Of a stretch of DNA of 64,000 nt, positions 3,093 to 23,332 are shown in pieces. Under the pieces are notes generated by a model, which was not told the origin of the DNA, ran no database searches, and was given only the letters and a program-made list of their open reading frames with translations. The position numbers and the translations under genes are program-made. Origin of the DNA: a virus; the IMG/VR virus record IMGVR_UViG_3300041809_000801, positions 1-64,000 of that record; one strand, given 5' to 3'. Each line of letters starts with the position of its first letter. Position 1 is the stretch's first letter.

Positions 3093-5907
3093 TGAGCACT
3101 CCTGTCTCAACCAAGAACCGTGACGGCTTCTGCCGAATCGTATCCGTGCCATTCTGAGCCATCGCCGGAACGCAGAGAGTCAACCAATCCTTCGCACGGG
3201 TACAGGCAACGTAGAACAGACGCCGCTCCTCTTCAACTTCTTCCTCAGAGCCCATGGAGAAGCGGTGGGGTAGGGAACCTTCAACGATATTGGTCACGTA
3301 CACTCGTGTCCACTCCAGCCCCTTGGCTGAATGAATGGTGGACACTGTAACCATGCCGTCCTTGTCATCCTCACGCGCCCGGTCGAGCGTAAGCTGAAAC
3401 ACGAGGTCTTCAGTGGACATCTTCTGATCCTCGGAAAGATTCCGCACAAGTTCCCGGAAACGTTCGATATTTTCCAGCTTGGATTTTACCTTGTCCGGTT
3501 CCTTTTTGTACTTGGAGGCGATGTAGGTTTTGTAGTTCATGTAGTCAATGATTTTGTCAAGAGCCTGAACTGGATACTCTCCAAACTTCTGGATATTCTC
3601 CAACGCAGACACGAATGTTGACAACTTATCAATTGACGTACAACCCTTAATCAGGTCACCACCAAACTTCTCATTAGCCGTCTTGCGGATTTTCTCCAGC
3701 GTCACATCACCAGCGCCTGTCTTAGGAACTGTCACAGCACGAGCGAGGGCTGTGAAATCCTTGGGATTGGTCGCCAGACGCAAATAGGAGAGCACGTCAC
3801 GAATCTCTTCAGTCTGAAGCAAGCCACGACCGCCGCGAACTTGATATGGAACGCGGTGACGAACCAAGGCACTTTCGATGTCTGGAACCTGACGAGCGGA
3901 GCGGACAAGAATGCAGTTTTCTTTGTACGGAATCTGGTCACGCTTGCGTGCATTGTCCTTGTAAATCTCTCCCGCGATAATCATCGCAACGTCCAAAGGC
4001 AGCGAGGCCCGAGTGATTTCAAGTGTGCCCTTGGTCTCTGCGTCTCCACGGAAGACCTGCATCTTCAAGGGAATCGTTGCTGTCATTTTTGATTGAATGT
4101 GGTTAGCGAGATACACAATGCGGGGGAGACTGCGATGGTTACGAGCGATGCGATACAGCATGGGACTATGCCCACGCCAGCCTTCGCTGTAGTCCTTGAG
4201 AATCTTTGGCACGGCCCCATTGAAGGCATAGATACAGTTACCTACCACCAAACCATCAGCAATGTAGGTATGGTCTTTCTCAACGTCAAGAGAGTATACT
4301 TGACCCTCAAACCACGCACTGGTAACAGAAGATATGGGCGTTGATTGGTTCACTCCGGGTAATGGAATGTCTAACAGAGAAGCGATGGGAACAGCATTAG
4401 CGGCGATGGTTTTGAAATACCCACGCCATTTGCGATTGCACTGATTTACAGTCGCATCATTCGACCGCTCTACTAGTGGCGTGTTTACATCCAACCCATA
4501 ATCTTCCAAACACTGTACTGCCTTTTTGGGGTCAGCATGAGAAAATACAAGCTTAATGAAATCTTGAGTCTTGTTTACACAGGCATGTTCAGCGTTGAAC
4601 ACACTCTCAGGGATGCCATATTTAATTGAGACGATTTCTTCCCACGCTTCTGCTTCAGGTCGAGAATCACAAACCCTTAAAATCCAAGCCCGATTGCCTC
4701 GTTCACAATTGAGCCGACTACTTAAACCAAACCCTGTCTGGCTCATGTTCTTTTTGAATTTACTCATCCCGACACGGAAACCATAACCGTCCTTCTGCAT
4801 CAGATACACAATGTACTTATCTCGGGTATTCTTGTTAAACCGTACCCACAACCAATGGTTTGGTGTAACGCGAGTGGACAAATTGTTCGCGGCGTGGATG
4901 GTAAGCAACGGCCCCTTATAGAAACGACTAGCTGCACGCACACCACGTTCAGCCGCATAAGTGCGTTGGTCACACTTTGTCCAAGAAACCACCCCCACAT
5001 CTGCCAATTGAAGTTCTCCTGTAAACGATTCAATTGAGACATCCTTATAGGTGGCGGGGTGTGTCCCATGTCCCGGTTTGTCTAAAGTTCGTACCATAGT
5101 TCCGGCTGGTTGACACTGGCTCATGTCGCCGACGACATAGAAGTTCTTGTTCGTTGGTGAGAGCAAGGAGTTCACAAACTCCCATTGCACAGGGTTGGTG
5201 TCCTGAGCCTCATCCATAAGCACATGTTCAAATCGCTTTCCCATGGACTCGCGGTAAGAGTCGTCTGTGCGGAGACGGCGGACAACCAGATGTAACATGT
5301 CATCGAAATCCACGACAGAGTTCTTTTTCTTTTCCTCTTCGTAGGCTTTCCAGATTTGCATGTCTAGCGGTTCGAGAGCGTGGTAACCGGCGTGTTCTAT
5401 CTGAGCCCGTTCATGAACTTCGTCGGTGTACTCTTCAGAAAACCCAAGACCACGAGAGCGGTGGAATCCCACTTTCTCAAGCAGGTTGTACACATAGGAG
5501 CCGAGACTGATGCCTTTCTCCTTGATGTCCACTTCCCGCTCCACAATTCTGCGAAGCATCTGAGTCTGGTCGTAGTCGTCCAGTGGAGTTACCTTGTTCT
5601 GAAGTCCAAAGCCGGGAGGGCTCTGACGAATGGAGCCAAGAGCCAAAGAGTGGATGGTGGACACCTTGGGAATGTCGAAGGATGCCTCCTCCAGTTCAAG
5701 CCGTTCCAATAGCTCGTTTGCGGCTTTGTTGGTAAATGTCACGCAACAAATTTTTCTAGGTGGCACCCCTTGGTTGATAAGATACCGTACCCGTTCAGTA
5801 AGAACCCGAGTCTTACCACTACCGGCCCCTGCAATTAAACACGCTGGAGAATCCACAGGGTGTTGCACCGCCAGCATCTGCTCTTCATTCAATTGTATTT
5901 GCGGCAT
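3085..5907 (-). CDS. UvrD/Rep-like SF1 DNA helicase interrupted by an intein
   Basis: This is a superfamily 1 helicase that would unwind DNA 3'-5' during replication or repair. Visible motifs are Q-motif LNEEQMLAVQ, Walker A GAGSGKT (about 27-33), TFTNKAA (Ia), DEAQD (Walker B, about 232-236), motif III GDMSQ joined after splicing to CIYAFNGA, VSTIHSAKGLEW (V) and FYVACTRAK (VI). Residues about 265-557 are an intein with its own features. The spliced host protein is about 647 residues, short but normal for phage Rep-like helicases. I chose the ATG giving MPQIQLNEEQ; a TTG four codons upstream is in frame. A divergently oriented GIY-YIG gene starts 39 nt away. Confidence 0.95.
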   Translation of the reverse strand: MPQIQLNEEQMLAVQHPVDSPACLIAGAGSGKTRVLTERVRYLINQGVPPRKICCVTFTNKAANELLERLELEEASFDIPKVSTIHSLALGSIRQSPPGFGLQNKVTPLDDYDQTQMLRRIVEREVDIKEKGISLGSYVYNLLEKVGFHRSRGLGFSEEYTDEVHERAQIEHAGYHALEPLDMQIWKAYEEEKKKNSVVDFDDMLHLVVRRLRTDDSYRESMGKRFEHVLMDEAQDTNPVQWEFVNSLLSPTNKNFYVVGDMSQCQPAGTMVRTLDKPGHGTHPATYKDVSIESFTGELQLADVGVVSWTKCDQRTYAAERGVRAASRFYKGPLLTIHAANNLSTRVTPNHWLWVRFNKNTRDKYIVYLMQKDGYGFRVGMSKFKKNMSQTGFGLSSRLNCERGNRAWILRVCDSRPEAEAWEEIVSIKYGIPESVFNAEHACVNKTQDFIKLVFSHADPKKAVQCLEDYGLDVNTPLVERSNDATVNQCNRKWRGYFKTIAANAVPIASLLDIPLPGVNQSTPISSVTSAWFEGQVYSLDVEKDHTYIADGLVVGNCIYAFNGAVPKILKDYSEGWRGHSPMLYRIARNHRSLPRIVYLANHIQSKMTATIPLKMQVFRGDAETKGTLEITRASLPLDVAMIIAGEIYKDNARKRDQIPYKENCILVRSARQVPDIESALVRHRVPYQVRGGRGLLQTEEIRDVLSYLRLATNPKDFTALARAVTVPKTGAGDVTLEKIRKTANEKFGGDLIKGCTSIDKLSTFVSALENIQKFGEYPVQALDKIIDYMNYKTYIASKYKKEPDKVKSKLENIERFRELVRNLSEDQKMSTEDLVFQLTLDRAREDDKDGMVTVSTIHSAKGLEWTRVYVTNIVEGSLPHRFSMGSEEEVEEERRLFYVACTRAKDWLTLCVPAMAQNGTDTIRQKPSRFLVETGVLSE
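4237..5115 (-). mobile_element. Intein in helicase motif III
   Basis: The host sequence GDMSQ is followed by Cys1 of the intein (CQPAGTMVRTL). The intein ends in HTYIADGLVVGN followed by a Cys at the +1 position of the host, which resumes CIYAFNGA. Splicing chemistry is therefore Cys1, terminal Asn, +1 Cys. The insert is 293 residues. The TRVTPNHWLWV stretch is the block B-like Thr/His region. The middle part (RAWILRVCDSRPEAEAWEEI through PLVERSNDA) is probably a homing-endonuclease or accessory domain, but it lacks a clear LAGLIDADG or GIY-YIG motif and I cannot name its family. The insertion point is the catalytically critical QxxR-type motif of UvrD-like helicases, typical for inteins. Confidence 0.93.
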
Positions 5908-5920
5908 TACGATTACCAAT

Positions 5921-7402: not shown

Positions 7403-7411
7403 ATGCTATTG

Positions 7412-7477
7412 GCGGAGAGTAGGAGACCTTTGTTTGATTAAGAGTCAAGTTTTAGAAGGAAGGGTTCCAATAGCCGC
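7412..7477 (-). ncRNA. Structured RNA unit, array-A family (isolated copy)
   Basis: On the minus strand the unit reads GCGG, CTATT, GGAA, CCCTTCCTTCT, a short variable hairpin, AGGT, CTCC, TACTCT, CCGC. The conserved boxes match those of the four units at 10.38-10.77 kb, while the closing stem differs. The 5' part overlaps the last codons of the GIY-YIG gene that ends at 7445. Orientation (minus) is chosen because neighbouring transcription is leftward and GNRA/UUCG-type loops appear on that strand in sister units. Confidence 0.6.
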
Positions 7478-8068
7478 GCAATGTCTAATAATACCACGAT
7501 TCAATCGAGATTGTCGTATTTTTTCTTTAGTTTCCTCAGATAGAACCTTGCCCTTGTTAGCGACACGTATCTTCTCTCTGGTATCTTGGGTACGTTCACC
7601 CAATACCCGACCTTCCAGAGCCTTCCGTAACTTGAGTTTTGTTTCTTCTGAACAAGGGTGAGAGCGTGGGTGCGCCACCAGACCTGCTTTGACCGCTTCA
7701 ATTCGCTTAGGGTTTAACCTGTTGTCAGCAGCCAGCCCGTTGGCATTTATGTAGTTAAACCCCGGTGATAGCCCCGCCTGATTGATGTAGTCGAAACCCC
7801 CGCTACCCCCTTGTCTCAGGTTATAGCATAGTGGGTCTTTTCGATACGACTCAATCAGTTCAAACTCTTTGGCGAAAGCTTCTTCGGCGTTGTCAAAGAT
7901 AAAGCACACATTCTTGATGAATGACTGCTCACCATACTTTTGAATCGCCGACCGGAGCACTTTACCCGACCCAAGGTACCCATCATACGGATTCCTAGTC
8001 TTGTGGACGCCGAGGTAATACTTGCCGTTTACAAGATTTTGTGTGCGGTATACCGTGTAAAATATCAT
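7445..8068 (-). CDS. GIY-YIG homing endonuclease
   Basis: The start is taken as ATG at 8068 (MIFYTVYRTQ), giving 207 residues. FYTVYRTQNLVNGKYYLGVH carries the GIY and YIG motifs, with KTRNPYDGYLGSG and a conserved acidic residue in KEFELIESYR. NUMOD-like repeats follow (SEETKLKLRKALEGRVLG, SEETKEKIRQSRLNRG). Its ribosome site AAGGGTG is buried in an 11-bp stem that touches the start codon (8069-8126). Its 3' end overlaps an array-A RNA unit, and part of its leader resembles the same unit, so the gene seems to be inserted at or next to such an element. Confidence 0.9.
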   Translation of the reverse strand: MIFYTVYRTQNLVNGKYYLGVHKTRNPYDGYLGSGKVLRSAIQKYGEQSFIKNVCFIFDNAEEAFAKEFELIESYRKDPLCYNLRQGGSGGFDYINQAGLSPGFNYINANGLAADNRLNPKRIEAVKAGLVAHPRSHPCSEETKLKLRKALEGRVLGERTQDTREKIRVANKGKVLSEETKEKIRQSRLNRGIIRHCAAIGTLPSKT

Positions 8069-8126
8069 GACTATCACCCTTAGTAGGAAGGGCTTCAATA
8101 GCCCCTCTAATTAGAGGGTGATAGTC
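8069..8126 (-). promoter_or_regulatory. Leader stem-loop occluding the GIY-YIG start
   Basis: Arms GACTATCACCC and GGGTGATAGTC pair perfectly over 11 bp. The 3' arm contains the ribosome site and ends at the base before the ATG at 8068. Two inner hairpins are visible, one CCCTCTAATTAGAGGG and one GGGC...GCCC that reads GGCTATTGAAGCCCTTCC, close to the array-A left box. I infer translational repression, as known for phage homing endonucleases such as I-TevI. Confidence 0.65.
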
Positions 8127-8134: not shown

Positions 8135-10357
8135 TTAGACTGCTACCGCCTTCTTCTTCACAACCGGAGCCTTTACAGCGTCAGCCATGAATTCCGAAGC
8201 GATACGGTCGAGTTCGAAGGGCGTTCCAGCTTCCACCGAGAACACCACATCCGCTTCCTCTGCCTCATCGACCAACGTGCCACGTGCTTCCACATGGAGG
8301 TTGAGCAAATCGTAGAGGTTAGGCTTCTTGATGTTAGTGAACGCCTTGCCCAAAAGTTCAATGGTTCCACGAGTGGACGCCACGTTGTTTCCACCACGCC
8401 AGCTATAACGGTAGTTGTTCCCAGTGGTCATAGTCGCATCAACCCAAATGACCTTGCGGTCAACGAGGTCGATAATCATCGGGACAACAGAGGTTGCCTC
8501 AGTCGTCACATCAGCCCGGTCAACTACAGTACGCGGGTCATAGACCTCGCCAGACTGCGGCTTCTCGCGAAGCATAAATCCAGCGAAGCACTCCGGCACA
8601 TCGGCGAACTTCTGTCCGGTGAAGCTGTGAACAGTCTGAACGATGTAACGCACACCCGCCTTTAGGGCTTTCGCAATGTCCACGTCGATGAACTCACTCG
8701 CACCCTTCGGTGCCGAAGTGATGTCGCCGCTGTGAACTGCGAACTGCTCACGCAAGTTGTAGTATGTCACCGCGCCCTTGCTCACCCAGTTCTCGTCATA
8801 GGCACACGCCGAGAGGTCAAGGTCAACACGATTCGAGTGATACCCGTAGAAGTTTTCTTCAAGGTCGCTGTCGGCCTTGCCAGACTTGCCTTCCTTCCAC
8901 CAGATGAAGAAGCGGACGGTGCCCTTCTCATCGCCGAACGGCAGCTTGGAGCCACGCACTAAGGTGCGGAACGTCTTGCTGGCCGAACGCTGCGAGAACG
9001 GCAGGAGACAATCCTGCAACGCAGAGTCGATGTACACGTTGCCCAACTCAGGCAGGATAGAGAACCGCTCGACCAAAACTGCCTTGATACCTGTAGCAAT
9101 CTTGCGAGTGACCGCCTTGGACATATTCTCCAAGGTCTTCTCCAGAGACATGACCTTCGCCACGTTCCCCTTCGGGAACACAACGCGCATGTCAGTCTCA
9201 TCGCGGTGCTCGAAGTGAGCCAGTACCTGCAACAGCACCGGGGTCGAAACATCGTGAGCAACAGCCAAGAAAGCATCCACAACACGGCCCTGCTTCGCCG
9301 GGGTGCCAGCCTGACGCAGAACGTGATCGAGACGACGAGCGAACTCGCCGGGGCGCTGAGTCAACAACGTGGTTGCCTGAAGAGCGTTGCCACTACGAAC
9401 AGCAGCTTCAACATGGGTGCGGAAAGTTTCCACAGTCTCATTGTTGCGAAGCGTAGTGAAAGCCTTCAGCGTAGTCGGGAAACGCTTCGCGAATTCGCCG
9501 GGATGCAGACGCTCACCGAGACGAACCCAACGAGCCGGGAAGCGGAGCATATCCTCTTCCTTGCTTCCTGCGGCTTCCAACAAACCAAGCAAGAACTTAC
9601 GCTCCGAACGCTTGAAGCTGCGGAACTTGGAGTCATCCTTGAGCGACACATCGCCGTTGCTCATCGCGGTCGCCAGACGCAGAACGTCCGTGGCCGTCTT
9701 GAAGTACGGGGCAATGTCAATCGCCGTGCCCTGAAGCAAGGCCCCAACATACGCGAGATTTTCCTTATTTGGAATCGCGGGAAAGATGTCGAGCAACTTT
9801 CCATACCCGTTCTTAATCAGGGTGGACAACTCTTCCTTGTCCGACGCTGACAGAGACGTATTGGACGTAGCCAGACGAGTGGTCAATGTGTCGATGTCTT
9901 CCGTGGTAGCAAGGTCAACAACACGCAACTCCACCTTTTCATCTAGCGGCTCACGCTTGTCCTTGACATACTTCGGCAACCAGATGTTGTCCGGGTTGCC
10001 CGTGATGTCTACGACCAAAAAAGAGAAGTAGTGGCAGATGGCGTTGATGTACAATTCCGCGTCCGAAGCCTCGATAACCTGCTTCGGGAAGTTCGGGTAC
10101 ATCGGGCGGTAGTTCTTCACGCCCTTAGCTTCCTTGAGTGCGGTAAGAATTTCATCGAAGAGAAGCACAGCGGACGCTTCGCCCAAACGCAGGAAGCCCT
10201 TGATGGCGTCGGGGGACAGAGTATAGCCAAGTGCTTGAATGTTCAGATTGAACGTGGCAACAAGCGCCGGGTATGGCGTGGGGGCAGACACACGCTTCCC
10301 TGAAACTGGAAGCAAAATCTTGTTGAGGCGGCGAAGAACAATCGACTGTACATTCAT
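8135..10357 (-). CDS. Large protein with C-terminal TerD-like domain
   Basis: The 740-residue protein has a helical N-terminal two-thirds, which begins with a stretch including YRPMYPNFPKQVIEASDAEL and continues through repeat-like helical segments. The C-terminal region (about 480-690) contains RFFIWWKEGKSG, RVDLDLSACAYDEN, HSGDITSAPKGASEFIDVDI and YIVQTVHSFTGQ. These resemble the Ca2+-binding TerD fold of tellurite-resistance and stress proteins. Such fusions exist in bacteria, but their role is unclear. A good AAAGGAG ribosome site precedes the ATG, and the structured RNA array at 10.38-10.77 kb forms its leader. Its 3' end is followed by the GIY-YIG leader. The domain match is from memory of motif patterns, so the function remains open. 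Confidence 0.8.
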   Translation of the reverse strand: MNVQSIVLRRLNKILLPVSGKRVSAPTPYPALVATFNLNIQALGYTLSPDAIKGFLRLGEASAVLLFDEILTALKEAKGVKNYRPMYPNFPKQVIEASDAELYINAICHYFSFLVVDITGNPDNIWLPKYVKDKREPLDEKVELRVVDLATTEDIDTLTTRLATSNTSLSASDKEELSTLIKNGYGKLLDIFPAIPNKENLAYVGALLQGTAIDIAPYFKTATDVLRLATAMSNGDVSLKDDSKFRSFKRSERKFLLGLLEAAGSKEEDMLRFPARWVRLGERLHPGEFAKRFPTTLKAFTTLRNNETVETFRTHVEAAVRSGNALQATTLLTQRPGEFARRLDHVLRQAGTPAKQGRVVDAFLAVAHDVSTPVLLQVLAHFEHRDETDMRVVFPKGNVAKVMSLEKTLENMSKAVTRKIATGIKAVLVERFSILPELGNVYIDSALQDCLLPFSQRSASKTFRTLVRGSKLPFGDEKGTVRFFIWWKEGKSGKADSDLEENFYGYHSNRVDLDLSACAYDENWVSKGAVTYYNLREQFAVHSGDITSAPKGASEFIDVDIAKALKAGVRYIVQTVHSFTGQKFADVPECFAGFMLREKPQSGEVYDPRTVVDRADVTTEATSVVPMIIDLVDRKVIWVDATMTTGNNYRYSWRGGNNVASTRGTIELLGKAFTNIKKPNLYDLLNLHVEARGTLVDEAEEADVVFSVEAGTPFELDRIASEFMADAVKAPVVKKKAVAV

Positions 10358-10379: not shown

Positions 10380-10462
10380 AGGTTGGAGAGTAGGAGACCT
10401 AATTCGTAGCGATGCCCTTTCGGGCGTCAATGAGTAGAAGGAAGGGCTCCAATAGCCAACCT
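10380..10462 (-). ncRNA. Structured RNA unit A4 (nearest the TerD gene)
   Basis: The closing stem AGGTTGG/CCAACCT (7 bp) encloses CTATT, inner stem GGAG/CTCC, CCCTTCCTTCT, a variable insert with a GCCC-GAAA-GGGC hairpin (GNRA loop), AGGT and TACTCT. It ends 23 nt before the start codon at 10357, so it is the last unit of the leader of the TerD gene. Confidence 0.75.
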
Positions 10463-10468
10463 AGAAGA

Positions 10469-10592
10469 CTGGAAAGCATCAAACCTTTTTGAGACCGCTG
10501 TCCTACCATTGGACGACAACCCCGAAGGGAGGCCGGATTCGAACCGGATTCGCGGTTTTGGTCATTTGAGAAGGAAGGGTTGAAATAGCCAG
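10469..10592 (-). ncRNA. Structured RNA unit A3 with an embedded permuted tRNA-like insert
   Basis: The frame is as in the sister units: closing stem CTGG/CCAG, CTATT, inner stem TCAA/TTGA, CCCTTCCTTCT, and AGGT on the 3' side. The insert is tRNA-like but in the order 3' half then 5' half. It has GCG...CGC anticodon-stem strands at its base, a T arm (CCGG, TTCGAAT, CCGG), a C(TTCG)G-capped stem where the acceptor ends would be, and a D arm (GTCC, AATGGTA, GGAC). The D and T arms closely match the tRNA-Gln at 11059-11132. Confidence 0.7.
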
Positions 10593-10603
10593 CCTGTGTT
10601 ATA

Positions 10604-10684
10604 GAGCCGGAGAGTAGGAGACCTAACACCATCGAACCCGCCGAGGCGGGAATTGTTAGAAGGAAGGGCTCCAATAGCCGGTTC
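10604..10684 (-). ncRNA. Structured RNA unit A2
   Basis: The closing stem GAACCGG/CCGGCTC (one mismatch) encloses CTATT, GGAG/CTCC, CCCTTCCTTCT and a third stem CTAACA/TGTTAG. Inside that stem are a CCCGC/GCGGG hairpin and a TTCGATGG segment that looks like a T loop. Conserved boxes are identical to units A1 and A4. Confidence 0.75.
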
Positions 10685-10703
10685 AACTTGTGTTGCAAAA
10701 CTC

Positions 10704-10774
10704 GTGAGTCGGAGAGCAGCAGACCTAGCTCTGTCCATTAGATGTAGAAGGAAGGGCTGCAATAGCCGACTCAC
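10704..10774 (-). ncRNA. Structured RNA unit A1 (first of the array)
   Basis: The closing stem GTGAGTCGG/CCGACTCAC is perfect over 9 bp. The inner stem is GCAG/CTGC, where A2 and A4 have GGAG/CTCC, a compensatory change that supports a real RNA helix. Boxes CTATT, CCCTTCCTTCT, AGGT and TGCTCT are conserved. The unit begins a few bases after a putative -10 element (10780-10785), so a transcript could start at its first stem. Confidence 0.78.
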
Positions 10775-11058: not shown

Positions 11059-11132
11059 TGGCTCCGTCGCAGGGATTCGAACCCCGATAAACAGATTCAA
11101 AGTCTGCTGTCCTACCGTTGAACGACGACGGA
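11059..11132 (-). tRNA. tRNA-Gln (UUG)
   Basis: Cloverleaf: acceptor TCCGTCG/CGACGGA, D arm GTTC-GGAC, anticodon arm GCAGA CTTTGAA TCTGT (anticodon TTG), T arm CGGGG/CCCTG. CCA is encoded. U1-A72 and G73 match known GlnRS identity elements. Confidence 0.93.
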
Positions 11133-11133
11133 A

Positions 11134-11352
11134 TTAAATATTCCCAGCCATGAGTTGGTCTTCAGCGTCAGCCAGCTTCCTTACTTCTCGACACAGAAAC
11201 GACACATACTCGCGACAACTTTCAAATGACAGCGACTTTGCGATTTCTGCTCTTCCTGCCGAGGTCTTCAATGCCTGACCCACAGCCTCAAGACCGAGAC
11301 GATGAAACCGCTCCTGCCCCAACTCATTCAGCAATTCAGAAAGTTCCGACAT
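11134..11352 (-). CDS. Small acidic protein, unknown
   Basis: The 72-residue product (MSELSELLNELGQERF...) is predicted helical, with mixed charge and one Cys pair far apart. The ATG overlaps the stop of the upstream 59-residue gene (TGATG), which suggests translational coupling, and GAGGG lies upstream as ribosome site. Its stop lies two bases before tRNA-Gln. No recognised family. Confidence 0.65.
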   Translation of the reverse strand: MSELSELLNELGQERFHRLGLEAVGQALKTSAGRAEIAKSLSFESCREYVSFLCREVRKLADAEDQLMAGNI

Positions 11353-11531
11353 CAACCCTCTACGATGGCGACCGACGCCTTCTTCCGGGCCTTCCCAATT
11401 TCAACCGTCACAGCCTTGCCCGTGTTCTCAGCCTCAAGGATAGCGTTGTACAATTTTGAACCGAAGGATAGGTCACCGTTCAATTCCAATATTGCACTTC
11501 TCGGTATCTCGACTTGAATTGTCTTCGCCAT
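11352..11531 (-). CDS. Small protein, unknown
   Basis: The 59-residue frame begins MAKTIQVEIPRSAILELNGD and ends in a basic KARKKASVAIVEG. The IQVEIP start suggests a small beta-rich or ribbon-helix-helix-like fold, but no family can be named. It lies between the long-armed tRNA-Gln and the gene at 11134, which it overlaps by one base. A GGAG 20 nt upstream is rather far for a ribosome site. Confidence 0.6.
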   Translation of the reverse strand: MAKTIQVEIPRSAILELNGDLSFGSKLYNAILEAENTGKAVTVEIGKARKKASVAIVEG

Positions 11532-11551
11532 CTAATCTAATACTCCAAACT

Positions 11552-11640
11552 TGGCTAGGGAGGCCGGATTCGAACCGACAAGGAGCAATTACGCTCAACA
11601 GCTTCAAAGACTGCGGGGCCTACCAATGCCCGACTCCCCA
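11552..11640 (-). tRNA. tRNA-Gln-like (UUG) with long variable arm
   Basis: Acceptor TGGGGAG/CTCCCTA with discriminator G and encoded CCA, D arm GGGC/GCCC, anticodon arm GCAGT CTTTGAA GCTGT (anticodon TTG), T arm GTCGG/CCGGC. The variable region is about 18 nt and forms a GAGC/GCTC hairpin, as in class II tRNAs, although the anticodon and the U1-A72/G73 ends are those of Gln. Confidence 0.85.
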
Positions 11641-11647
11641 ATAAAAA

Positions 11648-11932
11648 CTAAAACCTCTCTACAATGTACGGCATCAAATCAACCGACACTTCTGAACTTG
11701 TGTTCCAGTTATCCCCGTCGCGGTTATCATAGTAATAGACTGTCCCGCACAGGGGGCACCAACCACCTTCGAGTGAATGCCTTCCAACTTTCCCCTTACT
11801 ACGTACATGCTGTAGTTTTTCACGAAACGGCAAGTCGTTAAAGTTGCTTGGCCAGTTGAACAAACTTGCAAAACGATCCGGCCACAGCCGATGCTTTTGT
11901 CTTTGCCACCACCAGCGCAACTCATCTCTCAT
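11648..11932 (-). CDS. Small protein with a CPLC zinc-type motif
   Basis: From MRDELRWWWQ the product is 94 residues, rich in Trp and Arg at the start, with GGWCPLCGTVYYYDN near the C-terminus. That is a half zinc ribbon or short treble-clef-like motif. The ATG overlaps the stop of the upstream membrane-protein gene (ATGA), so translation is probably coupled. It ends in TAG, shortly before the long-armed tRNA. Function unknown. Confidence 0.65.
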   Translation of the reverse strand: MRDELRWWWQRQKHRLWPDRFASLFNWPSNFNDLPFREKLQHVRSKGKVGRHSLEGGWCPLCGTVYYYDNRDGDNWNTSSEVSVDLMPYIVERF

Positions 11933-12144
11933 TTCCACACCCCGACCAACCAAACAACCGCAGTGAGGAGCAACCAAACAATATCTGCAACAGCGAAAAC
12001 TAAACAGTACGCCATAGCCGCATACCCCTCAGTACCAGTTCCACGGCCAGCAGCAAGTTCAGCCTTCTCGACGCGGGTAGTGTGAAGCACCCACAAAGCC
12101 TGTACAACCAAAGCAATCAACAGAGTAAGAAACATGAAACCCAT
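11929..12144 (-). CDS. Small membrane protein
   Basis: ATG at 12144 (MGFMFLTLLIALVVQALWVL) is preceded by GGGAG 7 nt upstream, which is inside the end of the RNA ligase gene. The 71-residue product has two hydrophobic helices (about 2-22 and 45-68) joined by a charged loop. It is the middle gene of a coupled trio with the RNA ligase upstream and the CPLC protein downstream. Role unknown. Confidence 0.7.
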   Translation of the reverse strand: MGFMFLTLLIALVVQALWVLHTTRVEKAELAAGRGTGTEGYAAMAYCLVFAVADIVWLLLTAVVWLVGVWK

Positions 12145-12148
12145 GACA

Positions 12149-12745
12149 TCACTCCCAGTACGGTCCGATGTTTCGCCCGTACACTTCACTCAGTTTGGCA
12201 AAGTACGCTTTGGTCTTTATCTTACACATCCAATCGTCGCCCTTGCAGACAACCCCCTCCCACACTGGGTAGCGTCCTTCACGAATATCCTCGATGAACT
12301 GCTTGTTTAGATTACCCTCATACACTACTTCAGCAGAGTATGGTAGGTCTCCAAACACTTTAACGAACTGCCGGGGCTTCATCAACCCCCGCTTGAACAG
12401 GTACACATCAAAGAGACGAAGTTCTTTTGGCTCTCCTGCTATGTGCGACCCGGTGAAACTGCTCGGCCCGAAAAACTCAGTGAACGCCGTGATTCGCTGC
12501 GGCTGTCGCTCTACACTTTTCACGCGGCGGACAATTTCGTCGCCCATCTTCATGAAGAGTGGAATCGCCTCTCCGAAAATCTCGTCCGACTGGTCAAACA
12601 ACTGGGTACGAGTGCCGAACTTGAACCAGCCCTTCTTCGGGTTCCATTCCCATCGAAGGTTCGAACCGTCGTACTTATAGAAGGCGATGCACGGCTGACC
12701 AAACGGTGCCTTGGAGCTATTCTCGATGCTTGGGTACTGTTCCAT
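12149..12745 (-). CDS. RNA ligase (nucleotidyltransferase family)
   Basis: The 199-residue protein has the covalent nucleotidyltransferase motifs in order. Motif I is KYDGSN (Lys about 24), followed by a KFGTRTQ segment (motif Ia-like), FTEFFG (IIIa), WEGVVCKG (IV) and CKIKTKAY (V). It would join RNA ends using ATP through a ligase-AMP intermediate. It is short, so it consists mostly of the catalytic core without the accessory C-domain of T4 Rnl1 or Rnl2. An ATG with AGGG upstream gives MEQYPS; a TTG four codons earlier is in frame. Its place in the tRNA region suggests tRNA or other RNA repair. The activity is well supported, the substrate is inference. Confidence 0.88.
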   Translation of the reverse strand: MEQYPSIENSSKAPFGQPCIAFYKYDGSNLRWEWNPKKGWFKFGTRTQLFDQSDEIFGEAIPLFMKMGDEIVRRVKSVERQPQRITAFTEFFGPSSFTGSHIAGEPKELRLFDVYLFKRGLMKPRQFVKVFGDLPYSAEVVYEGNLNKQFIEDIREGRYPVWEGVVCKGDDWMCKIKTKAYFAKLSEVYGRNIGPYWE

Positions 12746-12770
12746 ACATCCCTTCAATCATTTTTGACTA

Positions 12771-12793
12771 CCACTTCCCTAATCAGGGAGTGG
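12771..12793 (+). promoter_or_regulatory. Hairpin occluding the HNH ribosome site
   Basis: CCAC-T-TCCCT, AATC, AGGGA-GTGG form a bulged 9-bp hairpin. The 3' arm contains AGGGAG, the ribosome site of the HNH gene starting at 12797. TTTTTGACTA precedes it, a sequence also found before the HNH gene at 18100. Confidence 0.5.
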
Positions 12794-12796
12794 TTT

Positions 12797-13189
12797 ATGA
12801 ATTGCCTTCAATGCGACCGAGAAACGAGCAACCCAAAATTCTGTTCCAACAAGTGCCAAGTGGCCCTTCGAAAATCTAAAATCGTTGAGCGTTGGCTCAC
12901 CACTGGTGAGGCTCGGCTCGAAACCCATGCAGGGCATTGCTATCGCGAACACATCATGCAAGAGCAAAACAACCGTTGTGCTATCTGCCAAATGCCCAAC
13001 GTCTGGAATGGCAAGCCACTAACCTTCAACCTCGACCACATCGACGGCAACTCTACCAACAACCAGAGAGAAAACATTCGATGCATCTGCCCCAACTGTG
13101 ACAGCCAGCTTCCAACCTCCAAAGGTCGCAACCGGGGGAACGGCAGACACTGGAGACGGACTCGCTATGCTGAAGGCAAATCCTGTTAA
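12797..13189 (+). CDS. HNH homing endonuclease
   Basis: The 130-residue protein has an N-terminal Cys cluster (CLQCDRETSNPKFCSNKC), then CAICQMPNVWNGKPL, FNLDHIDGNSTNNQRENI and RCICPNCDSQ. This is the HNH fold with DHIDG as the catalytic His motif and CxxC pairs binding structural zinc. It lies on the plus strand opposite to its neighbours, between the RNA ligase and tRNA-Thr, with only 2 nt to the tRNA 3' end. It is a free-standing mobile endonuclease related to the one at 18100-18759. Confidence 0.92.
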   Translation: MNCLQCDRETSNPKFCSNKCQVALRKSKIVERWLTTGEARLETHAGHCYREHIMQEQNNRCAICQMPNVWNGKPLTFNLDHIDGNSTNNQRENIRCICPNCDSQLPTSKGRNRGNGRHWRRTRYAEGKSC

Positions 13190-13191
13190 AT

Positions 13192-13267
13192 TGGAGCCGA
13201 CGACGGGAATCGGACCCGTGACCTCTTCATTACCAATGAAGTGCTCTACCAACTGAGCTACGTCGGC
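13192..13267 (-). tRNA. tRNA-Thr (GGU), copy 1
   Basis: Acceptor GCCGACG/CGTCGGC, D arm GCTC/GAGC, anticodon arm CTTCA TTGGTAA TGAAG (anticodon GGT), T arm ACGGG/CCCGT, discriminator T, encoded CCA. Confidence 0.93.
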
Positions 13268-13272
13268 TTTTT

Positions 13273-13473
13273 TTACAAAATACGAAAAGAACAAGAGGAA
13301 ACTTCATCATAGCCATCATCGTAATTCGTTTTGAAAACGTTCCAAACGCATCCATCAGAAGACTTAGCCTTGAAACCCGGAGCTATAACTGTTTGAGGAA
13401 GGGACAACATACCAGTAGGATGCTGACTCTTCAAAATGGAAACCACTATGGCTTTGTAATCCTCTGCTTTCAT
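13273..13473 (-). CDS. Small protein, unknown
   Basis: The 66-residue product starts MKAEDYKAIVVSILKSQHPTG and has a Cys near the end. A good AAAGGA ribosome site lies in the tail of the upstream gene. It ends five bases before tRNA-Thr, so gene and tRNA are likely on one transcript. No recognised family. Confidence 0.65.
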   Translation of the reverse strand: MKAEDYKAIVVSILKSQHPTGMLSLPQTVIAPGFKAKSSDGCVWNVFKTNYDDGYDEVSSCSFRIL

Positions 13474-13486
13474 TTTTCCTTTCGAG

Positions 13487-13963
13487 CTACGGTAGCTTAA
13501 GGTGGGACTTAATTACGTGGATACAAAAGTCCGCACCCATCCAATCCCACTTGTCATTCGTCTCGTCGTTGTCCTGAAGGTCGCGAAAAATCTGCTCCAA
13601 CTTCTTAACAGCGTCTTCGACTGTCATGTGCTCCTCAACTGGAGGCACCCTGCAATACTGTCCGCCATGCGGAAAAGCGCAAGGCTGAGTTGCTGCCAAA
13701 TCTTCGGCGGTTGCCTGAGCCGCCCACTCATCAAACTCGCAAGCCAAACAAACCTTGCGACGGTCGGCCATTTGCTGCGCCCATGTTACGTAGTTCATTG
13801 AGAGGCACTCCCAACCAACATAGCTGGAATCCTCCCCGAAATCTTTTTCCTTCCTCGCACACTCAGTGCAGAAGGGGTGAGTACCGGCGAACTGCGTGTG
13901 ACGAATCCACGTGGCTTGCTTGCCACAACCGTTAATGCACGTTTCAACAGCAACAGTTGCCAT
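13487..13963 (-). CDS. Zinc-binding protein, unknown
   Basis: The 158-residue protein has CINGCGKQATWIRH then HPFCTECARKEKDFG, later CLACEFDEW, and finally a charged helical tail. The CxxxC/CxxC pairs suggest a treble-clef or ribbon zinc domain at the N-terminus. A good AAGGTGA ribosome site precedes the ATG. It ends in TAG, and the next gene follows 13 nt later. It is likely a phage-specific small DNA- or protein-binding factor, but nothing shows the target. Confidence 0.75.
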   Translation of the reverse strand: MATVAVETCINGCGKQATWIRHTQFAGTHPFCTECARKEKDFGEDSSYVGWECLSMNYVTWAQQMADRRKVCLACEFDEWAAQATAEDLAATQPCAFPHGGQYCRVPPVEEHMTVEDAVKKLEQIFRDLQDNDETNDKWDWMGADFCIHVIKSHLKLP

Positions 13964-13981
13964 GAAATCACCTTCAAACTT

Positions 13982-14055
13982 TGGAGCCGATAACAGGAAT
14001 CAAACCTGTGTCTACTGCGTACCAAGCAGTTGCACTGCCACTATGCTATACCGGC
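13982..14055 (-). tRNA. tRNA-Thr (GGU), copy 2
   Basis: Acceptor GCCGGTA/TATCGGC, D arm GCAT/GTGC, anticodon arm ACTGC TTGGTAC GCAGT (anticodon GGT), T arm ACAGG/CCTGT, discriminator T, encoded CCA. It is diverged in sequence from copy 1 but has the same anticodon. C38 in place of A is unusual. Confidence 0.88.
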
Positions 14056-14259
14056 TTACTTACAACACAATCCATTTGTATGTGCTCGAATCACTTCTTC
14101 GACCGTGCCCTGTTTCACAACCCCGTCATCAGTCCACGTCATCGCACCATCGTTCACAGTTGCAAAATGCTCCGGTCCGTGATCTTCATGCCCATCACAT
14201 TGAGTGCCCTGATACTCCGACTGGCAAAGTGCCATCCCAAACTCATCTTCTCTTTTCAC
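14056..14259 (-). CDS. Small His/Cys-containing protein, unknown
   Basis: A GTG start with GAGGAG 6 nt upstream gives a 67-residue protein with CQSEYQGTQCDGHEDHGPEH, a Cys/His-rich stretch that could bind a metal, followed by TWTDDG. It ends directly at the 5' end of tRNA-Thr copy 2. Unknown family. Confidence 0.6.
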   Translation of the reverse strand: MKREDEFGMALCQSEYQGTQCDGHEDHGPEHFATVNDGAMTWTDDGVVKQGTVEEVIRAHTNGLCCK

Positions 14260-14402
14260 AAATGCTCCTCACACCACCAGCGGAAACGGTCGATGGGATA
14301 CGTCACTGGTTCCCACGCCGACTTAGGTAGAACATACCATAATGACTGGGCAAACCGATAGGGTACTCACCATCGCGTTCAATGTCATCTAATACCCAAC
14401 CT

Positions 14403-14478
14403 TGGAGCCGAGTAGGAGAATTGAACTCCTGACCTTCTCGTTACAAGTGAGACGCTCTACCAACTGAGCTAACCCGGC
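14403..14478 (-). tRNA. tRNA-Thr (UGU)
   Basis: Acceptor GCCGGGT/ACTCGGC, D arm GCTC/GAGC, anticodon arm TCTCA CTTGTAA CGAGA (anticodon TGT, with an A-C mismatch next to the loop), T arm AGGAG/CTCCT, encoded CCA. Confidence 0.9.
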
Positions 14479-14484
14479 CAATCT

Positions 14485-14567
14485 TGGAGCCACGGGAGGG
14501 ACTCGAACCCCCGATGTTTGTATGACGGTTTACGATACCGTTGCAGTCGCCGCTGAGCCACCGTGGC
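14485..14567 (-). tRNA. tRNA-Thr-like (CGU) with extended variable loop
   Basis: Acceptor GCCACGG/CCGTGGC, anticodon arm ACGGT ATCGTAA ACCGT (anticodon CGT), T arm GGGGG/CCCTC, encoded CCA. The variable region is about 12 nt (CATACAAACATC) and the D arm is weak (GCT opposite TGC). Confidence 0.82.
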
Positions 14568-14580
14568 AAAATCAAATTGT

Positions 14581-14663
14581 TGGAGCCGGTGAAGGGAATC
14601 GAACCCCCGGTGTTTGTATGGCAGTTTACAAAACTGCTGCTGTCGCCACTGAGCCACACCGGC
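14581..14663 (-). tRNA. tRNA-Thr-like (UGU) with extended variable loop
   Basis: Acceptor GCCGGTG/CACCGGC, D arm GCT/AGC, anticodon arm GCAGT TTTGTAA ACTGC (anticodon TGT), T arm with TTCGATT loop, encoded CCA. The variable region CATACAAACACC is nearly the same as in the neighbouring gene at 14485, so the two are paralogues. Confidence 0.82.
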
Positions 14664-14852
14664 TTAATGCTTCTTGTTCTTTCTCGGTCCCTTTCGAGAC
14701 CAAGACATGTCCGCGTTCTTACCCGCTACATACTCGCGACATGCGGCGTACTTCTTACACAGTTCACGAATATAAGAGCAGTCATCTTTGTGCAGCCGGA
14801 GATTCCCTCCGGCTTTCTCACCACACGCGAAACATGGACGTTCTTCCAACAT
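14664..14852 (-). CDS. Small Cys-containing basic protein, unknown
   Basis: From MLEERPCFACGEKAGGNLRL the frame gives 62 residues with CFACG, two further Cys and a very basic tail (RKGPRKNKKH). It fits exactly between tRNA-Ile and a Thr tRNA, starting three bases after the tRNA-Ile 3' end. No ribosome site is clear. It could be a small zinc-binding nucleic-acid protein. Confidence 0.55.
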   Translation of the reverse strand: MLEERPCFACGEKAGGNLRLHKDDCSYIRELCKKYAACREYVAGKNADMSWSRKGPRKNKKH

Positions 14853-14855
14853 ACT

Positions 14856-14932
14856 TGGTGGGCGAAGGTGGGCTCGAACCACCGACCTCAGTCTTATCAG
14901 GACTGCGCTCTAACCAACTGAGCTATTCGCCC
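14856..14932 (-). tRNA. tRNA-Ile (GAU)
   Basis: Acceptor GGGCGAA/TTCGCCC, D arm GCTC/GAGC, anticodon arm CAGTC CTGATAA GACTG (anticodon GAT), T arm around TTCGAGC, discriminator A, encoded CCA. Confidence 0.94.
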
Positions 14933-14933
14933 A

Positions 14934-15329
14934 TTACAACTCGAAATCTTTTGCCAAAGTCACTCTCTTGCTCTGATGGTTCTTTGAAGCTTCGAATCGC
15001 AAACTTATCGACCGTCGTTTTCCAAACACCACCATTGGCACGAGGTAGCATTTATCCAACTCAGTACAATAAGCAGCTATGTGGTCTACCTGCCCATGAT
15101 ACCAATTTGTGCCTTTAGTAGAGACACTTTTTGCATCAACCACTACAGCACCGCTAATGATACGCCCGGTCTTTACTTGGACTCTTTCAAAAGTCCCCTC
15201 GTTATCAATGACCAAATCGTATCGCTCATTATCTCCCCATGGGGTTAAAACCACATACCCCCGCTTCAACAGAGCAGCCAATACAGCCGCTTCACTCACA
15301 TTACCTACACGCTTTGTATCTTGAGGCAT
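14934..15329 (-). CDS. PD-(D/E)XK nuclease of the group-I-intron endonuclease type
   Basis: From MPQDTKRVGNVSEAAVLAAL the protein has 131 residues. The pattern SEAAVLAALLKRGYVVL, PWGDNERYDLVID and RVQVKTGRI matches the PD-(D/E)XK family that includes the tRNA-intron homing endonuclease I-Ssp6803I: a Glu, then D of YDLVID, then QxK. It is expected to cut DNA. It lies between two tRNA-Ile genes with no recognisable intron. It may be a free-standing homing enzyme aimed at tRNA genes or a relic of an intron endonuclease. A longer frame upstream would overlap the tRNA at 15350, so this ATG is preferred. Confidence 0.82.
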   Translation of the reverse strand: MPQDTKRVGNVSEAAVLAALLKRGYVVLTPWGDNERYDLVIDNEGTFERVQVKTGRIISGAVVVDAKSVSTKGTNWYHGQVDHIAAYCTELDKCYLVPMVVFGKRRSISLRFEASKNHQSKRVTLAKDFEL

Positions 15330-15349
15330 GTGGTCTAATACCCTAAACT

Positions 15350-15423
15350 TGGTGCGCCTTATAGGAGTCGAACCCATGTCTTCCGCTAATCGGGCGGAGG
15401 CTCTACCGTTAAGCAAAAGGCGC
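15350..15423 (-). tRNA. tRNA-Ile-like (GAU by position), unusual anticodon loop
   Basis: Acceptor GCGCCTT/AAGGCGC, D arm GCTT/GAGC, anticodon arm TCCGC CCGATTA GCGGA, T arm ATGGG/CCTAT, discriminator A, encoded CCA. Standard numbering gives anticodon GAT, but position 33 is C, not the near-universal U. Identity is therefore uncertain. Its first 15 bases overlap the end of the gene at 15409. Confidence 0.8.
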
Positions 15424-15669
15424 AAAAACTTTTCGACACTTGCACTCGGCGACGTTATCTCCGCCGAACCCGAAACAATCGGGGTTAGTTGCTATCAAAC
15501 TCTCGGCTTCCACTGGAGGAGGCGTCTCTTTCAACTTCTCCTGCAAATCTTCAAGCGCCGAGATTGCTTTCTTGTACGTGGATATTAAAGCACCCGCGTA
15601 CCCAAATCCGTCTCCGCGTACTGCATTTTTCTCAGCCCGGAGTTGACTGATAACTGCATCAATGTCCAT
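15409..15669 (-). CDS. Small helical protein, unknown
   Basis: From MDIDAVISQLRAEKNAVRGD the product is 86 residues: a helical first half with a likely coiled coil (SALEDLQEKLKE) and a C-terminal CKCRK. The ATG overlaps the end of the upstream gene. The stop codon TAA lies inside the D loop of the tRNA at 15350-15423, so the last five codons are also the tRNA 5' end. Processing of the tRNA would therefore cut the mRNA. Confidence 0.65.
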   Translation of the reverse strand: MDIDAVISQLRAEKNAVRGDGFGYAGALISTYKKAISALEDLQEKLKETPPPVEAESLIATNPDCFGFGGDNVAECKCRKVFAPFA

Positions 15670-16045
15670 CGCTGTCCAACGCCTTCCGGGCTGCGGTGTC
15701 AAACTTCTCCGCATTCCAAAACCCTGCAAAAGAACCGCTGGAAGTGATGAGCAATTCACCTTTCGAAACTTTCAAACTGATGCCGAGGCTATCAACTCTT
15801 TGCTCCTCCCAATCTCGCGTCGAAGGCACATGTCCACAATCTTTCATGATGTGAACGATTGCTGCCTTGCGACCGAGAACCCCAAACAATTTTTCTGCCT
15901 CATCAACCCCACGTGAGTGGTGTCGCCAAAATCTGTGCAACGGACCAAACCGTTTGAATCCCGCATCCAACCAATGATTCACTTCTTCGCATCGGTCGCC
16001 GAGGATGCGTTCACAATCTCGACAATGCTCATCGAATGACGCCAA
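15659..16045 (-). CDS. Conserved small phage/bacterial protein (DUF6915-like)
   Basis: The product (about 128 residues from a TTG, MASFDEHCRDCERIL) includes HRFWRHHSRGVDEAEKLFG, resembling small proteins in which a His-rich FRHHALRHHxxGI-like helix is followed by ExxFG. The strong AGGGGGAG ribosome site 5 nt upstream favours this TTG start; a GTG at 16063 is in frame. A C-terminal region (GISLKVSKGELLIT) looks beta-rich. Function unknown. It overlaps the next gene by 11 nt. Confidence 0.6.
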   Translation of the reverse strand: MASFDEHCRDCERILGDRCEEVNHWLDAGFKRFGPLHRFWRHHSRGVDEAEKLFGVLGRKAAIVHIMKDCGHVPSTRDWEEQRVDSLGISLKVSKGELLITSSGSFAGFWNAEKFDTAARKALDSDGH

Positions 16046-16067
16046 AACTCCCCCTAAAAACACTAAA

Positions 16068-16085
16068 GCCGCCTGTTCAGGCGGC
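16068..16085 (-). terminator. GC-rich hairpin followed by T-rich sequence
   Basis: GCCGCCTG/CAGGCGGC with a 2-nt centre is followed on the minus strand by TTTAGTGTTTTT. It lies between the hairpin array at 16.24-16.41 kb and the next gene and probably ends or attenuates transcription of the array. Confidence 0.6.
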
Positions 16086-16234
16086 TCATCGCATCTCAGA
16101 TTGAATCTTTTCAGATTCGTACGAAAACACGAGGCCGCAGAACGCTGGTTTGCGTTGTAGTGGTAATTCGTGTTTGGTTTGTGAGACGCATTGATGATTC
16201 CTTCTTGGTACCTTTCAGAAACTTAATGCTTGGT

Positions 16235-16406
16235 CGGTGGGGACAGACGTTAGCCTACCCCCACCGATGGAGCCGGTCGAATAGTTTCCCACTCTCCCGG
16301 CTTGGCCCCCGACCCAAGGTTGCCCTCAGGCCGGAGTTGGCACCCGGCTTAAGGTTTCCCTCGAACCGGGTATGGTGGGTGACTCAAGGTTTCCCTCTAA
16401 TCACCC
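16235..16406 (-). ncRNA. Tandem short-hairpin RNA array (array B, five hairpins)
   Basis: Read leftward: hairpin 16377-16406 (GGGTGA/TCACCC), 16342-16371 (ACCCGG/CCGGGT), about 16305-16336 (CTCCGG/TCGGGG), 16271-16302 (AGCCGG/CCGGCT) and 16235-16266 (CGGTGGGG/CCCCACCG). The first three share an inner AGG-GNAA-CCT hairpin flanked by small internal loops (TTAG/TGAG, TTCG/TAAG, CCTG/TGGG). The fourth is a looser version, and the fifth has a 16-nt loop. Outer stems differ by compensatory changes. A phage-type promoter ends at the first hairpin. About 150 nt further left no gene or clear element is visible (16086-16234). Confidence 0.7.
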
Positions 16407-16414
16407 TCATCTAC

Positions 16415-16445
16415 ATAATACCAGCGAAAGTTGGTTTTTGCAACT
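16415..16445 (-). promoter_or_regulatory. Phage-type promoter for array B
   Basis: On the minus strand AGTTGC, AAAAACC, and after 19 nt TATTAT preceded by TGG. The first hairpin of array B begins 8 nt after the -10 hexamer. Confidence 0.5.
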
Positions 16446-16458
16446 AACTTGTGAATTA

Positions 16459-16482
16459 TTTTTCCACAGCTTTATGGAAAAA
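16459..16482 (-). other. AT-rich hairpin
   Basis: TTTTTCCA and TGGAAAAA pair over 8 bp. It lies between the terminator of the secreted-protein genes and the array-B promoter. A role in termination from either side is possible. Confidence 0.45.
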
Positions 16483-16489
16483 TGTCTGT

Positions 16490-16546
16490 GGGGTGAGTAT
16501 CCCACCCCCTAATCGGACATGAAACCAGACATCGTGTCCGATTAGG
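16490..16546 (-). terminator. Double hairpin after the secreted-protein genes
   Basis: The first hairpin (16508-16546) has perfect 12-nt arms CCTAATCGGACA/TGTCCGATTAGG and includes the stop codon of the upstream gene. The second (16490-16508, GGGGTG/CACCCC) is followed by ATTTTT. Together they probably terminate leftward transcription. Confidence 0.65.
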
Positions 16547-16958
16547 TGGCGCTCAAAGTCCCAAGGACAGGAGCCGCTGGATGAAACGGTGTTGTAATGG
16601 TAGCACAATTCGACGGGGCAGAATTTGCAGCAGTGTTTGCGGTCGGGGCTGCTTCCACATCGTAACTGTACTGAGTCGTTGGGCTCACTGTGTTGTCCAA
16701 ATATTGCGTAGCCGAGGGGACGGCGACAGTTCCCAACACAGTCCAACCGGCTGATGCAGCCAGCGTTGAAGGACAAGTTCCGGCGATACGGTAAACAGCC
16801 AGCAAGCAAGTATTCGTGGATGTGCAGGAAGTGTCGGTGACCGGAACAGTCACAGAGCTAGTTGCTGCCCCCGGCAGATTGGTTGTTTGAGCATGAACTG
16901 ACGATATGGTCAAACCGAAAACCATCAGCAGTGCGGTTGAAAGAAAAAGTTTCTTCAT
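16542..16958 (-). CDS. Secreted fibronectin-III-like protein 3
   Basis: MKKLFLSTALLMVFGLTISS followed by VHAQ is a clear signal peptide with AxA-type cleavage near residue 23. The mature part (about 115 residues) is a single beta-sandwich with VYRIAG...GWTVLGTV...YSYDVEA, a pattern of FnIII domains, and two Cys likely in a disulfide (CTSTNTC). It has an AAGGAG ribosome site and follows two homologous genes. Such secreted domains may bind the cell surface or decorate the virion; which one is unknown. Confidence 0.8.
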   Translation of the reverse strand: MKKLFLSTALLMVFGLTISSVHAQTTNLPGAATSSVTVPVTDTSCTSTNTCLLAVYRIAGTCPSTLAASAGWTVLGTVAVPSATQYLDNTVSPTTQYSYDVEAAPTANTAANSAPSNCATITTPFHPAAPVLGTLSAT

Positions 16959-16971
16959 GTGTAGCTCCTTT

Positions 16972-17400
16972 TTATGTGGCGTGCAAAGTTCCAATAACAG
17001 GTGGAGTGGGAACAAACAACGTAGCGGGAATGGGTACAGTTACTGTGTTCGAGGGAACGCTCGTAGCTCCCGAGGCGTCCACGCTTTCAACATAGTAAGT
17101 ATACGTATTGCCCTCTACAACAGTTGAATCAGTGTAGGCGACAAGTGTTACAGGTGTGGCATTCAACAAACCACCAGTTGGTGAACGATAAACGTTGTAA
17201 CCGGCAACAGGGTCCCAACATGGGTCGGAGGCCGCAATTAGTTGTGTGGTGCATGTGGGTAAATTAGCCGAGTTGACTGGAGCATTCCAAGTCAAACCAA
17301 CCCCGTACCCTGTTACCCCTTTAGGAAGTGCGACAGTTGACTGTGCCTGTGCGGTGAGCCCACACAAGAACAGAACCATTAAATATGAACGAAGCCCCAT
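16972..17400 (-). CDS. Secreted fibronectin-III-like protein 2
   Basis: MGLRSYLMVLFLCGLTAQAQ is a signal peptide. The mature domain has GLTWNAPVN...YNVYRSPTGG...TYTYYVESVD...PSNTVTVPIP, the usual run of an FnIII domain (Trp in strand B, Tyr in strand C, YYVxxVD in strand F). GGAGTGG precedes the ATG at 17400. It is the middle of three adjacent secreted paralogues. All lie in one leftward transcript behind tRNA-Val. Confidence 0.82.
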   Translation of the reverse strand: MGLRSYLMVLFLCGLTAQAQSTVALPKGVTGYGVGLTWNAPVNSANLPTCTTQLIAASDPCWDPVAGYNVYRSPTGGLLNATPVTLVAYTDSTVVEGNTYTYYVESVDASGATSVPSNTVTVPIPATLFVPTPPVIGTLHAT

Positions 17401-17437
17401 GCAGTCCACTCCATACTACAGACTTCCAGAGTCAAAA

Positions 17438-17803
17438 TTATGGTGCGATGAACGTACTACACGAGGACGGACCGGAAGTAGGAATACTGCCAGCCCCTGA
17501 CTCCACATCATAACTGTACTGTGTTCCTGACACCACTGACGTATCGGTGTAAGACGTTACCTGAGTAATAGGGGTAGTGGTCAAAAGAGTCCAGCCGGGA
17601 GAGCCACTCAAACCCAAAGGGCAAACACCCCCAATTCGATACACCCAAAAATTGCAAGGCGTGGTTGAAGTACAGCCCGGAGGTAGTTGCCACGGCACCA
17701 CGATACCTGAGATGGGTGGTGGGGGAGGGGGAGGCGGTGGTGTAACTACTTTACACCCAACGCAGCATCCAAGAAGAATCAAAAGAAAACTGAACCGCTT
17801 CAT
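17438..17803 (-). CDS. Lipoprotein with proline-rich linker and FnIII-like domain
   Basis: MKRFSFLLILLGCCVGC ends in a lipobox-like LGCC/VGC, so the mature N-terminus is probably lipidated. VVTPPPPPPPPP follows as a linker and then a FnIII-like domain (FWVYRIGG...GWTLLTTT...YSYDVESG) with CTSTTPC resembling the 16542 protein. A GAGG ribosome site precedes the ATG. It is likely anchored in the host envelope, possibly acting in superinfection exclusion or surface modification; this is inference. Confidence 0.8.
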   Translation of the reverse strand: MKRFSFLLILLGCCVGCKVVTPPPPPPPPPISGIVVPWQLPPGCTSTTPCNFWVYRIGGVCPLGLSGSPGWTLLTTTPITQVTSYTDTSVVSGTQYSYDVESGAGSIPTSGPSSCSTFIAP

Positions 17804-17820
17804 AATACGACCTCAATAAT

Positions 17821-17898
17821 TGGTGCGTCCTGAGGGAGTCGAACCCCCGACCTTCTCTGCGTCAAAGAGTTGCTCTAAACCCACTGAGCTAAGGACGC
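17821..17898 (-). tRNA. tRNA-Val (GAC)
   Basis: Acceptor GCGTCCT/AGGACGC, D arm GCTC/GAGC, anticodon arm ACTCT TTGACGC AGAGA (anticodon GAC; the outer pair is A-A), T arm GGGGG/CCCTC, discriminator A, encoded CCA. Confidence 0.88.
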
Positions 17899-17916
17899 AG
17901 GTACAGCATATCATAA

Positions 17917-23013: not shown

Positions 23014-23034
23014 ATTGACGCCCAAAAATCGGTA

Positions 23035-23326: not shown

Positions 23327-23332
23327 ATACCA

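Follow-up and report, generated by a model that had tools for sequence, protein, structure and literature searches.

Structured RNA units paired with a TerD-domain protein gene in phages and bacteria, a candidate counterpart of the Ro60–Y RNA particle

The window studied here, the first 64,000 nucleotides (nt) of the 88,934-base IMG/VR virus record IMGVR_UViG_3300041809_000801, carries a cluster of structured RNA units on its minus strand. Four of them (A to D) lie head to tail from 10772 to 10380, immediately 5' of a gene for a 740-residue TerD-domain protein (10357-8135), and a fifth (E) lies 3' of that gene, past a GIY-YIG endonuclease open reading frame (ORF) (Table 1). The original prediction had drawn four related units at 10380-10774 and a fifth copy at 7412-7477; the four were recovered at 10380-10772 and the fifth at 7411-7478 with R1, our covariance model of the unit, and an R1 search of the entire virus record gave no units beyond A to E. 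Unit A has the closing stem GAGTCGG/CCGACTC, a CTAT loop, a TCCTTCT box, a 26-nt insert and a 9-bp stem containing mismatches, and its fold scores z -2.5 against shuffles. The insert of Unit B is 40 nt with a GC-rich hairpin, while the low R1 score of Unit C is due to its 89-nt insert. The ribosome-binding site that serves the TerD gene follows closely on the end of Unit D (z -2.9). A putative promoter had also been placed at the start of the array; a consensus scan upstream found no sigma-70-like promoter, so that claim is unsupported.

Table 1. Features of the locus; positions are those of the window.
Feature	Position	Strand	Basis
Unit A	10706-10772	-	structural search and R1, 52.7 bits, E 3e-12
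Unit B	10604-10684	-	structural search and R1, 42.1 bits
Unit C	10466-10595	-	structural search; R1, 16.2 bits over 10532-10593 only
tRNA-like module of Unit C	10494-10556	-	read from sequence; permuted order
Unit D	10380-10462	-	structural search and R1, 44.2 bits, E 7e-10
TerD-domain gene (740 aa)	8135-10357	-	AlphaFold model, predicted local distance difference test (pLDDT) 90; TerD structure 3ibz, E 1.5e-6; NF041916, E 2e-131
12-bp hairpin around a partial unit (GGCTATTGAAGCCCTTCCT, 8085-8103)	8069-8126	-	read from sequence; R1 does not detect
GIY-YIG/NUMOD3 homing endonuclease ORF	7445-8098	-	phrog_314, E 1e-40
Unit E	7411-7478	-	R1, 43.4 bits, E 1.2e-9

In an alignment of 47 diverse units, the consensus reads, from 5' to 3', closing stem, CYAU, 9-bp stem, UCCUUCU and a variable insert, followed by the 3' strands. 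The closing stem terminates in GG/CC, CYAU faces 5 nt (usually xxUUU) across an internal loop, the last pairs of the inner stem, C-G and U-A, are nearly invariant, and the UCCUUCU box is invariant. The inner stem and boxes of the original prediction are present, but the stem really is 9 bp and the loop is CYAU against 5 nt; with its near-invariant ends the stem absorbs part of what had been read as the CCCTTCCTTCT and AGGT boxes. The compensatory changes noted in the stems are as described: each of the ten freely varying stem positions shows all four Watson-Crick pairs, paired cells make up 96.7% of the alignment against 59.2% when shuffled, and the covariation score of 0.952 compares with 0.177 for shuffles (0/500) and 0.15-0.20 with partners slid. 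Over 129 units, inner-stem pairing is 93%, against a mean of ~47% and a maximum of 52% in 500 re-pairings; the 3' side was found here from sequence alone, which avoids circularity and selection bias. The boxes stay constant across Bacillota, Pseudomonadota, Bacteroidota and others, while the stems differ. A coding explanation of the units was rejected, given their size of 67-130 nt, inserts of any length and covarying stems. They are a real structured RNA family, and, as had been proposed, no family in Rfam 15 covers the unit: searches at gathering and relaxed thresholds gave only tRNA, tmRNA, sub-threshold YrlA and chance matches.

The UCCUUCU box is complementary to purine-rich ribosome-binding sites, and the units could on that account be antisense regulators or ribosome decoys that pair with a Shine-Dalgarno-like AGAAGGA. 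Bacteroidota seldom use Shine-Dalgarno pairing, however, and the box is just as invariant there; moreover, the CYAU/xxUUU loop is also conserved, more as a protein site would be. We consider this role highly improbable.

The check suggested with the original prediction, a search of other phages for homologous units with covariation, was run and gave a strongly positive result. Among 64 distinct phage loci selected by the protein, the covariance model (E up to 0.1) found 132 RNA matches, none of them on the strand opposite the gene. Units were present in 55 of these loci, including that of the cultured Xanthomonas phage XacN1 (three units), and once the filters were switched off, marginal matches came up where expected in most of the rest. 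Starting instead from the RNA, 41 of 62 virus records with the 5' box pattern encode the protein, and the rest are nearly all coding false matches or fragments, with a few exceptions (e.g. G010 and G050).

At most loci the units sit upstream of the gene and on its strand, no more than a few hundred bases away, and the last often lies 30 nt or less from the start codon. The same leader position had been assigned to the units in the window, and it is true of Units A to D, but Unit E lies downstream, and at least 12 phage loci have units exclusively downstream of the gene, as do several bacterial loci. Were the units cis-acting autoregulatory leaders, at which the TerD protein binds the mRNA that encodes it and governs how well that mRNA is translated or how stable it is, the upstream majority would be accounted for. 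The downstream-only phage loci disfavor a leader-only role, arrays reach seven or more units (at least seven at locus L008), and a binding site in a leader would not need the exchangeable tRNA-like modules described below. We consider autoregulation unlikely.

The pairing of this RNA class with the TerD-domain gene extends to cellular bacteria, a wide occurrence absent from the original prediction, as were the tRNA-like inserts and the Y RNA analogy. Searches of 26 whole bacterial genomes gave 33 RNA matches: 31 share the strand of the gene and are no more than 1 kb away from it, second paralogues included, and the remaining two are on contigs without the gene. The box pattern led to the gene in Paenibacillus, Brevibacillus, Niallia, Pseudomonas, Achromobacter and Lysobacter, and also in Bacteroidota, Armatimonadota, Acidobacteria, Cyanobacteria and Myxococcales; homologues of the protein in Streptomyces, Deinococcus, Vibrio and Variovorax have units too. 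The gene occurs in ~1% of an unselected sample (349 Pseudomonadota and 300 Bacillota), where units accompany all six newly found copies.

A subset of the inserts is tRNA-like. A T arm occurs in the insert of 25 of 295 distinct units, and ~20 of these, from phages and bacteria, then have a D arm in permuted order and the capped acceptor that marks YrlA. In Unit C the module starts with ACCGC (the 3' strand of the anticodon stem) and the T arm CCGGTTCGAATCCGG, and continues with a short acceptor-like stem with a TTCG cap, the D arm GTCCAATGGTAGGAC and GCGGT (the 5' strand of the anticodon stem); order and arms are present, the acceptor is weak, and the module is degenerate. Minimum-free-energy folds of units from L008 and L254 place T arm, capped acceptor and D arm on the stem of the unit, as cloverleaf mimics. 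The Rfam YrlA model is significant at 30-47 bits in L008, L009, L010, L055, L254, L252, L228 and L105, and the best match (47.1 bits, E 1.9e-7) is below the cut-off of 69. In the window it gives 21.8 bits at 10473-10572 (Unit C), which we do not take as evidence, since two adjacent real tRNAs score alike (22.3 bits).

Two L010 inserts (L010:245-384 and L010:95-239) have a complete acceptor stem with (A)CCA between it and the cap loop, and both look as if derived from two neighboring tRNA genes.

The permuted tRNAs among the inserts, the ends brought together by the closing stem, and the ACCA after one 7-bp acceptor stem in L010 would suit ribozyme-like or processing elements that circularize or mature the insert, for example turning permuted tRNA genes into functional tRNAs. 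Such a role seems very unlikely to us: more than 90% of units are without a tRNA, most acceptor stems are closed by a tight loop without CCA, and no known ribozyme family matches.

The partner protein is predicted by AlphaFold to combine an alpha-helical N-terminal part (residues ~1-470) with a C-terminal TerD domain; the C-terminus of the model matches TerD structures in Foldseek. The window protein itself has no Pfam match, and Pfam TerD is matched by 6 of 51 homologues. Its similarity to NCBIfam NF041916 (MXAN_6230/SCO0854) spans most of its length at 440 bits, below the cut-off of 600.

We think it probable that the units are the RNA subunits, and the neighboring alpha-helical/TerD protein the protein subunit, of a ribonucleoprotein resembling the Ro60–Y RNA particle. 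Each unit would be the gene of a small non-coding RNA or a segment processed into one. Their conserved part (closing stem, CYAU/xxUUU loop, 9-bp stem and UCCUUCU) may be a scaffold to which the protein binds, much as Ro60 binds the basal stem of Y RNA, and the insert an exchangeable effector module, mostly a short hairpin or loop. In about one unit in twelve the effector would mimic a tRNA, with the anticodon stem as its point of attachment and the acceptor capped. By analogy, under stress the particle might bind RNA or present it to be repaired or degraded, or might act as a decoy for tRNA-acting enzymes, and the phage version might help to protect tRNA and translation during infection. Neighboring genes sometimes fit this picture: the Variovorax copy adjoins rtcR, the Aliikangiella copy has behind it genes for an RNA ligase and a kinase-like protein, two phage copies are near RtcB, and phage copies are also near tRNA nucleotidyltransferase.

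Several points weigh against this ribonucleoprotein reading. (i) Residues 1-470 have no significant match to any solved structure. (ii) The partner shows no likeness to TROVE/Ro60 by Pfam, PDB profile, Foldseek or hhalign profile comparison, nor did these reveal the paired vWA and TROVE domains; with sequence, profile and fold comparisons all negative, TROVE homology was rejected. (iii) RNA-repair neighbors are a minority, and most of the bacterial neighbors inspected are unrelated. (iv) Most units have no tRNA-like module, and the module in the window folds no better than shuffles (z -0.97). (v) Binding of the RNA by the protein, processing into separate RNAs and the function itself are what we infer around the observed pairing.

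The TROVE comparisons bear equally on whether the units could be true Y RNAs, new bacterial ones to which Ro60 binds. The overall architecture is shared and the tRNA module is recognized by the YrlA model, but sequence, profile and fold searches all failed to place the partner in TROVE, and the virus record has no TROVE gene. The YrlA matches mainly fit the tRNA-like part, several being confined to it, and stay below the cut-off, and TROVE loci searched as a control had no R1 unit (YrlA at one locus). Membership of the Y RNAs proper is thus most improbable. That the units and their partner work like Ro60–Y RNA is the best-supported, still unproven, explanation, and we lean toward its wider form, an obligate ribonucleoprotein across many phyla that parallels Ro60–Y RNA on an unrelated protein and carries exchangeable modules including tRNA mimics, and that would repair RNA or control its quality in bacteria and counter damage in phages.

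The GIY-YIG ORF that separates the TerD gene from Unit E is probably a neighbor and not part of the RNA-TerD system. Its 3' end overlaps the 5' part of Unit E, and just before it stands a 12-bp hairpin enclosing half a unit, probably a remnant; the endonuclease gene may have inserted into an array of units. Other features of the window, all on the minus strand, include a permuted two-piece tmRNA (23021-23340; Rfam RF04321, 59 bits, and ARAGORN; tag AEPMALAAAA) and an eleven-tRNA cluster (11059-17994), one with anticodon CUA (ARAGORN label Pyl; a possible amber suppressor). A UvrD-like helicase (3085-5919) has a probable intein (Intein_splicing, weak, residues 330-561). Genes for an NAMPT-like phosphoribosyltransferase and then a NUDIX protein (73-2476) may together make up a pathway that rebuilds NAD+; such a pathway would counteract defences that work by depleting NAD+. 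An ordinary tmRNA (L105:6028-6373, 156 bits) lies in another unit-bearing phage locus.

Few protein-partnered structured RNA classes span many bacterial phyla and phages, and a near one-to-one partner is uncommon. If the proposed particle is real, it would give a role to the large, functionless SCO0854/MXAN_6230 family, link TerD domains with RNA, and point to a ribonucleoprotein with tRNA-mimicking RNA having arisen twice on unrelated proteins. Open questions on Ro60–Y RNA and on TerD become directly testable in laboratory strains.

Of the systems known, the partner belongs to the broad NF041916 family, which is described as a RING protein, whereas the window protein is without RING; no source found for this family mentions an RNA partner. 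No description of such an RNA turned up in papers that mention SCO0854, or that mention TerD alongside Y RNA, Prok-RING or RtcR, in a search that left bioRxiv and most subscription journals outside. With the TerD proteins of Ter (tellurite/phage resistance; PF02342; 3ibz, 2qz7) the partner has in common the predicted C-terminal TerD fold, here joined to a helical domain of 470 residues; among the neighbors looked at, no further Ter genes were noticed.

The Ro60–Y RNA particle is associated with RNA repair and decay. The RtcR-controlled rtcBA repair operon of Salmonella includes the rsr (Ro60) and Y RNA genes (PMC7790460), and in Deinococcus, Y RNA tethers Rsr to PNPase (PMC7790460, PMC8058203, PMC8394870). 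Unlike YrlA (RF02553), the units are built on the UCCUUCU box and CYAU/xxUUU loop, with the YrlA scaffold absent, and the majority have no tRNA module; unlike Ro60/Rsr (TROVE, PF05731), the partner has TerD and neither a TROVE nor a vWA domain, and TROVE loci are without such units. Two defining Y RNA features, the scaffold match and the TROVE partner, thus fail, and we therefore rate the system as new. What it has in common with YrlA and Ro60 is a small RNA with a basal stem made by its own ends, encoded beside its protein and sporadically distributed, in a subset of units joined via the anticodon stem to a tRNA-like module with a capped acceptor, and sometimes adjoining RtcR, RtcB or an RNA ligase.
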